From contig CALUXG010000022.1 of NCBI GenBank assembly GCA_944324685.1, positions 1 through 59,472 of the forward strand: a stretch of 59,472 nucleotides of DNA, in the 5' to 3' direction. Shown one piece after another: positions 25,756-26,349 of this stretch. Position 1 is the first letter of the stretch. Every line of letters starts with the position of its first letter. Origin of the DNA: an uncultured Elusimicrobiales bacterium. GTDB taxonomy: Bacteria > Elusimicrobiota > Elusimicrobia > Elusimicrobiales > Elusimicrobiaceae. Under the pieces are notes generated by a model. It saw only the letters and a program-made list of their open reading frames with translations. It did no database searches and had not been told where the DNA came from. The position numbers were made by a program, and so were the translations under genes.

Positions 25756-25789
25756 AAAAAAGACCCCCCGATATAATCCATCGGGGGGT
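25756..25789 (-). terminator. Terminator of the minus-strand ncRNA
   Basis: Stem CCCCCCGAT/ATCGGGGGG (25764-25772 with 25780-25788), then six T on the minus strand only. Confidence 0.9.
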
Positions 25790-26145
25790 TCACTTCATCT
25801 CTTTCATTCACTTTTCCTTTTTAAGTCAGGTCAGGCGACTTATCCGTCCAAACCGTCTCCGGCAACCGCACGCTCCGCCACAGGCCGAACCAATACATCA
25901 ACCCACGCGAAACGCCACACGTCTTCACACTACCTTACCGCCAACGCCGCAACTGCACAACCCTCAACCAACACCGGCCATACACCGCAGCCGCTCACGG
26001 CACTGTCTTGCTTGTCCGCTCCGCCGCAACGGCTCACACATCCGCTCGTTGCCGCGGCCCTGCTTCCGGTCAGTCCGCTTTCCTACCCGCTTTCCTTCCT
26101 TCGCAGTTGCCACAGACGTCCACGCACCCAACCCGGGACTGTCTT
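25756..26145 (-). ncRNA. Candidate structured ncRNA, about 390 nt
   Basis: Bounded by a near-consensus promoter and a strong intrinsic terminator on the same strand. The RNA would be G and U rich and C poor, unlike its neighbours. Visible stems include GCAACG (26047-26052) with CGTTGC (26026-26031) and a GCCG/CGGC stem with a 4-nt loop. Near the 5' end a 10-nt word AGGAAAGCGG occurs twice (26087-26096 and 26075-26084). I looked for RNase P RNA, tmRNA, SRP RNA and 6S RNA signatures: the GAGGAAAGUCC and ACAGAA segments, an alanine tRNA-like end, the SRP apical loop and the 6S size. None is convincing. The RNA class is unknown. Confidence 0.65.
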
Positions 26146-26151
26146 ACTGAC

Positions 26152-26179
26152 AGTATAAGCGTATTTATAAATTTGTCAA
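26152..26179 (-). promoter_or_regulatory. Promoter of the minus-strand ncRNA
   Basis: Minus strand TTGACA (26174-26179), 16 nt, TATACT (26152-26157). CTGTC/GACAG, an inverted repeat, spans from just after the -10 to the first transcribed bases. Confidence 0.85.
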
Positions 26180-26306
26180 GGGGTGATTTTTAATTTTTTT
26201 GGAGAATGTATTTTTGTAATATTTTTCGTCTGAGATTCAAAATCTTTTATATCTTTACGAGCGGAAAACTGCACCGATGAGCATGAGAGAAGCCTTTTTA
26301 GCACTT

Positions 26307-26340
26307 AAAAACACCCTATGCTTTTGCATAGGGTGTTTTT
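26307..26340. terminator. Terminator downstream of glyS
   Basis: AACACCCTATGC, loop TTTT, GCATAGGGTGTT, with T-runs on both strands. Confidence 0.88.
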
Positions 26341-26349
26341 GAAGAGTTC

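Follow-up and report, generated by a model that had tools for sequence, protein, structure and literature searches.

The 5' part of SgrS encodes a small functional protein, SgrT, which has some 40 residues. Like SgrS/SgrT, the locus described here is a separate RNA gene that has a small ORF and ends in an intrinsic terminator; here, however, the ORF has about five codons, its sequence is unconserved and it is fused to the terminator. With tmRNA (RF00023) the locus shares a folded RNA, paired ends and a short reading frame offered to the ribosome, but this frame starts at a Shine-Dalgarno site and an AUG, outside the closed domain, and the tmRNA model gives no match. Leader-peptide attenuators of the tnaC, erm or pyrBI type also place a small ORF beside an intrinsic terminator; in contrast to these, most of the genomes have no co-directional downstream gene at our locus, and it is the length of the ORF, not its codon content, that is conserved. 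OLE, ROOL and GOLLD are likewise long, folded and lineage-restricted RNAs, but the present RNA has no match in Rfam, and we know of none of the three that ends in a micro-ORF.

In the window (the whole stretch of 59,472 nucleotides that was analysed, from an uncultured Elusimicrobiales bacterium), we found a structured RNA that is real, genus-wide and, to our knowledge, undescribed; a literature search for a comparable layout, with partial coverage of the literature, returned none. The features of the gene are as follows:

25756 to 26145, minus strand: RNA gene, predicted transcript (from its fold and homologues in 56 of 66 genomes of the genus)
26180 to 26184, minus strand: ACCCC block abutting the -35 hexamer on its upstream side, present in most homologues
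26152 to 26179, minus strand: promoter, -35 TTGACA (26179-26174), 16-nt spacer and -10 TATACT (26157-26152), found by scan and conserved in 54 homologues
26127 to 26135, minus strand: 5' strand of the closing helix P1, CGGGTTGGG, partner 25835-25827
25827 to 25835, minus strand: 3' strand of P1, CCTGACCTG, from 5'/3' end pairing by duplex-energy permutation
25872 to 25912, minus strand: conserved hairpin with invariant loop core GGTTGAT...TTCGGCC and covarying stem, from covariation and an exact-motif search
25815 to 25819, minus strand: Shine-Dalgarno site AAGGA, an SD-like motif preceding the AUG in every homologue
25790 to 25807, minus strand: micro-ORF ATG AAA GAG ATG AAG TGA (MKEMK), from homologue comparison
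25756 to 25789, minus strand: intrinsic terminator, stem 25789-25763 (11 pairs) followed by CTTTTTT, from a terminator scan

The first-pass annotation had placed about 390 nt between a near-consensus promoter, TTGACA-16-TATACT, and an intrinsic terminator on the same strand, and both were confirmed, the latter with the 11 pairs and CTTTTTT found by the scan. The promoter scores 11/12 and is the top promoter-like site within the 2 kb scanned. CTTGA, a spacer of the 16-nt type and a TATACT-like -10 element are conserved in the 54 genus homologues with an available 5' end, most of which also carry CCCC directly ahead of the promoter. Such conservation rules out a chance occurrence. The transcript start is predicted about 7 nt downstream of the -10 element, and the distance from this element to the terminator varies from about 230 to 535 nt across homologues. 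The RNA had been described as rich in G and U; it is G-rich (40% G) but not notably U-rich (21% U, 18% C), and the 10-nt word said to be duplicated in it, AGGAAAGCGG, is present as reported. That the region codes for no credible protein holds in that the RNA strand has no ORF longer than 55 aa inside the transcript, but the micro-ORF at 25807-25790 had been overlooked.

The whole window gave no match to Rfam at gathering scores, and the RNA region gave nothing credible at relaxed thresholds (E up to 10), so that comparison with the Rfam covariance models named no known class. Weak relaxed-threshold matches near 26300 were rejected as they coincide with the glyS terminator. Covariance models also agreed with the earlier failure to find signatures of RNase P RNA, tmRNA, SRP RNA and 6S RNA. 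RNase P RNA (RF00010) has no match in the region, and the RNase P RNA of this genome lies on contig C13; for tmRNA there was no ARAGORN call in the window, and the true tmRNA is on contig C48. Neither the region nor six genomes matched 6S RNA (RF00013), and each of the two SRP RNA models (RF00169, RF01854) was run on six genomes without a match. A CsrB-type sponge for CsrA was rejected as well because GGA is not enriched, its counts resembling those of mononucleotide shuffles.

Across the genus genomes tested, SRP RNA (with the small or large Rfam model or the core pattern) and 6S RNA were not found, while RNase P RNA and tmRNA were found easily. The pattern for the GGAA-capped helix 8 core of SRP RNA gave nothing in eight genomes with 3 mismatches allowed. 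These searches covered differing subsets of G000, G008, G016, G020, G023, G025, G028, G030, G068, G086 and G087; strongly diverged or replaced versions of both RNAs are possible in this genus.

The proposal that the RNA is structured was borne out by its fold and by two helices that covary in relatives. The fold is more stable than all of 100 dinucleotide shuffles (z = -4.9). Helix P1 joins the 5' end of the RNA to the segment immediately upstream of the Shine-Dalgarno site. Its cognate duplexes average -26.0 kcal/mol, as compared with -20.3 kcal/mol when partners are permuted among genomes, permutations in which relatedness remains (0/5000). For the hairpin stem (25912-25872), 90% of cells are paired and both sides have changed in 36 cells. 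Its covariation was 0.270, against 0.130 in shuffled controls that also leave relatedness in (0/500), and the optimum was at slide 0. This sliding control, together with the variety of the sequences, makes a chance origin of the covariation unlikely. Thus, the collection of homologues and the covariation check that the first-pass annotation had suggested turned out positive for both helices. The loop, UUGAU...UUC, is invariant among homologues.

The RNA gene is present in 56 of the 66 genomes of one genus of uncultured Elusimicrobiales. The 56 copies were verified by reading the matches, and include one extra locus found by BLAST (L012, G026). A covariance model of the 3' part matches in 57 of the 66 genomes; among the high-quality genomes 34 of 36 have the RNA, a bare-terminator match in G063 being discarded. 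Three genomes of the genus have homologues that match at full length with 77-78% identity, and further ones have partial matches. The motif GTTGATGTA-N(1-5)-GTTCGGCC is found exactly, and once per genome, in 20 of the 66 genomes; its reversed control gave 0. In the genome and viral collections this 17-base motif matched a few Elusimicrobiales loci; its matches in unrelated phyla and unnamed viral contigs were taken as due to chance. A phage collection gave no match to the RNA, and a covariance-model search of 341 genomes of the phylum returned only weak matches outside the genus (E 2e-5 or worse), two of which, in G123 and G333, proved on reading to be bare terminators. Within the reach of these searches the RNA thus appears restricted to a single genus, in keeping with the lineage specificity suggested earlier.

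The RNA had been considered noncoding, and this was not borne out. In every homologue an SD-like motif is followed by an AUG, a few codons and a stop, directly before the terminator and fused to it. The Shine-Dalgarno motif is always present, with a variable sequence (AAGGAAG, GTGAGGAG, AAGGAGT). Counting the AUG, 54 of the 56 micro-ORFs are precisely five codons long; the two exceptions have four and eight, so that gains and losses are of whole codons only. The 36 distinct five-codon ORFs all begin with AUG and all end in a stop, which is TGA, TAA or TAG (43, 7 and 6, respectively, of the 56 copies), while their inner 12 bases vary widely, with an entropy of 0.9-1.9 bits. The terminator stem starts immediately past the stop codon, the last two bases of which it can take in in most homologues, and begins at +17 from the A of the AUG in 43 of 52 copies. 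A comparable micro-ORF is rare elsewhere in the fetched DNA: about 5 of some 985 other terminator-like sites (about 0.5%) have one, copies of both RNAs (see below) having been excluded by eye. Furthermore, neither RNase P RNA nor tmRNA ends in a micro-ORF in the copies that we read from other species of the genus; this tail is therefore no general habit of RNAs there.

Because the AUG, the Shine-Dalgarno site and the length are kept while the stops switch and the inner bases vary, selection appears to preserve translation, frame and length and not a peptide. The anatomy of the gene and selection for translation, taken together, are very probably as set out here, as judged from sequence comparison. 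On comparative evidence only, the RNA would then be a dual-function small RNA, in the sense of having a small ORF under selection for translation. A conventional trans-acting or protein-binding small RNA, in which the tail has no translational function, seems very improbable to us: the conserved loop GGUUGAU...UUCGGCC does resemble a binding site, but an invariant AUG, a kept frame and three-way switching of the stop in 56 copies and in a second RNA would be hard to explain.

If the peptide itself mattered, the RNA could be a messenger for a (formyl-)pentapeptide that has a function, such as that of a signal, and its structured 5' region would be subject to regulation. The peptides are hydrophilic and similar within clades (METSR, MKEST, MTQTK), and MKEST occurs in both RNA families, in different species. 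Hydrophobic residues are rare in the peptides, a rarity that is mostly explained by base composition. Against a functional peptide, this RNA encodes 35 different peptides across the genus, and most genomes encode two such RNAs with differing peptides. Moreover, purifying selection on the sequence did not show in the peptide conservation test, the nearest single-base neighbours including 3 synonymous and 5 non-synonymous changes for this RNA and 3 and 8 for the second, with few informative pairs and small numbers. We therefore regard a functional pentapeptide as quite unlikely.

The gene has an orthologous location in most genomes, between glyS and lipA, after glyS and facing a small convergent lipoprotein-like gene and lipA (the latter named by eye from sequence). 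This arrangement bears on the idea that the RNA is a ribosome-mediated attenuator, in which translation of the micro-ORF would block the terminator and let transcription enter the downstream gene. A tiny ORF beside a terminator is the known layout of leader-peptide attenuators, and ribosomes translating up to a stop codon repress terminators located a few bases past it (PMC4824070). However, most genomes, including that of the window, have a convergent gene downstream, as do 24 of 55 loci of the second RNA, and codon identity is not conserved. The RNA was accordingly not assigned to the leader-peptide attenuators, and we consider attenuation improbable. By synteny, sister genera have pilin-like or other genes behind glyS, and the RNA is absent there; in many genomes of the sister genus (glyS loci L259-L274) it is a pilin-like gene that occupies, after glyS, the place that the RNA has in this genus.

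Weak matches of the covariance model led to a second RNA that occurs across the genus. It measures about 270-380 nt between promoter and AUG, has its own promoter and lies downstream of a helix-turn-helix gene that 63 of the 66 genomes contain. In the species of the window it is located as follows:

G000:C30:106800-108600 (locus L316): second RNA, peptide MKDCS, micro-ORF at about base 1170

Its cognate closing helices average -27.6, as compared with -20.3 for permuted partners, relatedness again remaining in the permutations. Its tail is built alike in 55 of 58 loci, with an ORF of five or six codons whose stop is fused to the terminator stem. Two loci tested against Rfam gave no match, and we saw no evident sequence relation between the first and the second RNA. 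Counted from the A of the AUG, the usual start of the stem is +17/+18 or +20 in both RNAs. That two RNAs in the same bacteria share this tail suggests a link between RNA and translation that has not been described.

Possibly, the micro-ORF merely docks a ribosome on which the structured domain acts, any melting of the hairpin being incidental. The Shine-Dalgarno site and the AUG are kept while the codons vary, and the tail is common to two RNA domains without evident similarity, as would be expected from docking. Docking alone, however, needs no stop codon, no fixed number of sense codons and no fusion to the terminator, and we consider it rather unlikely as the sole use of the tail. On present evidence, the pentapeptide and attenuation are weaker rivals than docking.

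The reading we favor, which we put forward tentatively as a serious candidate, is that this structured RNA, like the second one in the genus, is transcribed independently and has a translated micro-ORF as its tail, through which translation would set the fate of the RNA. In both RNAs the usual start of the stem is close to the position that the leading edge of a ribosome has during initiation. RNA polymerase would terminate normally, since a ribosome could not get there soon enough. Once the RNA is finished, a ribosome initiating at the AUG would reach with its front to the foot of the terminator hairpin (about +17), and four elongation steps would push it about 12 nt into the hairpin. The hairpin that guards the 3' end of the RNA would in this way be opened before the ribosome is released, and translation could thereby control the RNA's lifetime or active conformation, so that the RNA would be a reporter or an effector of ribosome activity. 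Terminators placed in a coding region's first 100 bp remain active (PMC4824070), suggesting that the micro-ORF tail can still terminate, with translation opening the hairpin later. That melting of the hairpin by translation is the use of the tail is conceivable, and we propose it with some reserve. With similar caution, the tail may represent a general device for ending RNAs, in which, on at least two structured RNAs, a micro-ORF of fixed length, independent of the peptide, docks an initiating ribosome at the terminator hairpin, and translation switches stability or shape; such a device would be a ribosome-driven timer or sensor of a kind not previously described.

The two genus-wide RNA genes are an addition to what is recorded for a poorly known phylum. 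They also display what appears to be strong selection for the translation of a five-codon frame, whatever its content, at a place where ribosome and terminator are bound to meet. Should the favored reading be true, this would be a new principle that couples the fate of an RNA to translation. It would also mean that ORFs far below the limits of gene finders can be working parts of 'noncoding' RNAs.

In two species, G027 (L232) and G003 (L242), the RNA is much shortened, to about 230 nt, and retains the promoter, the hairpin and the micro-ORF; these short versions should be useful to delimit the minimal RNA. The glyS terminator (26305-26345 in the window) is a near-perfect palindrome flanked by A- and T-runs and is likely bidirectional. 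Unlike it, the terminator of the RNA often retains G-U pairs in homologues.
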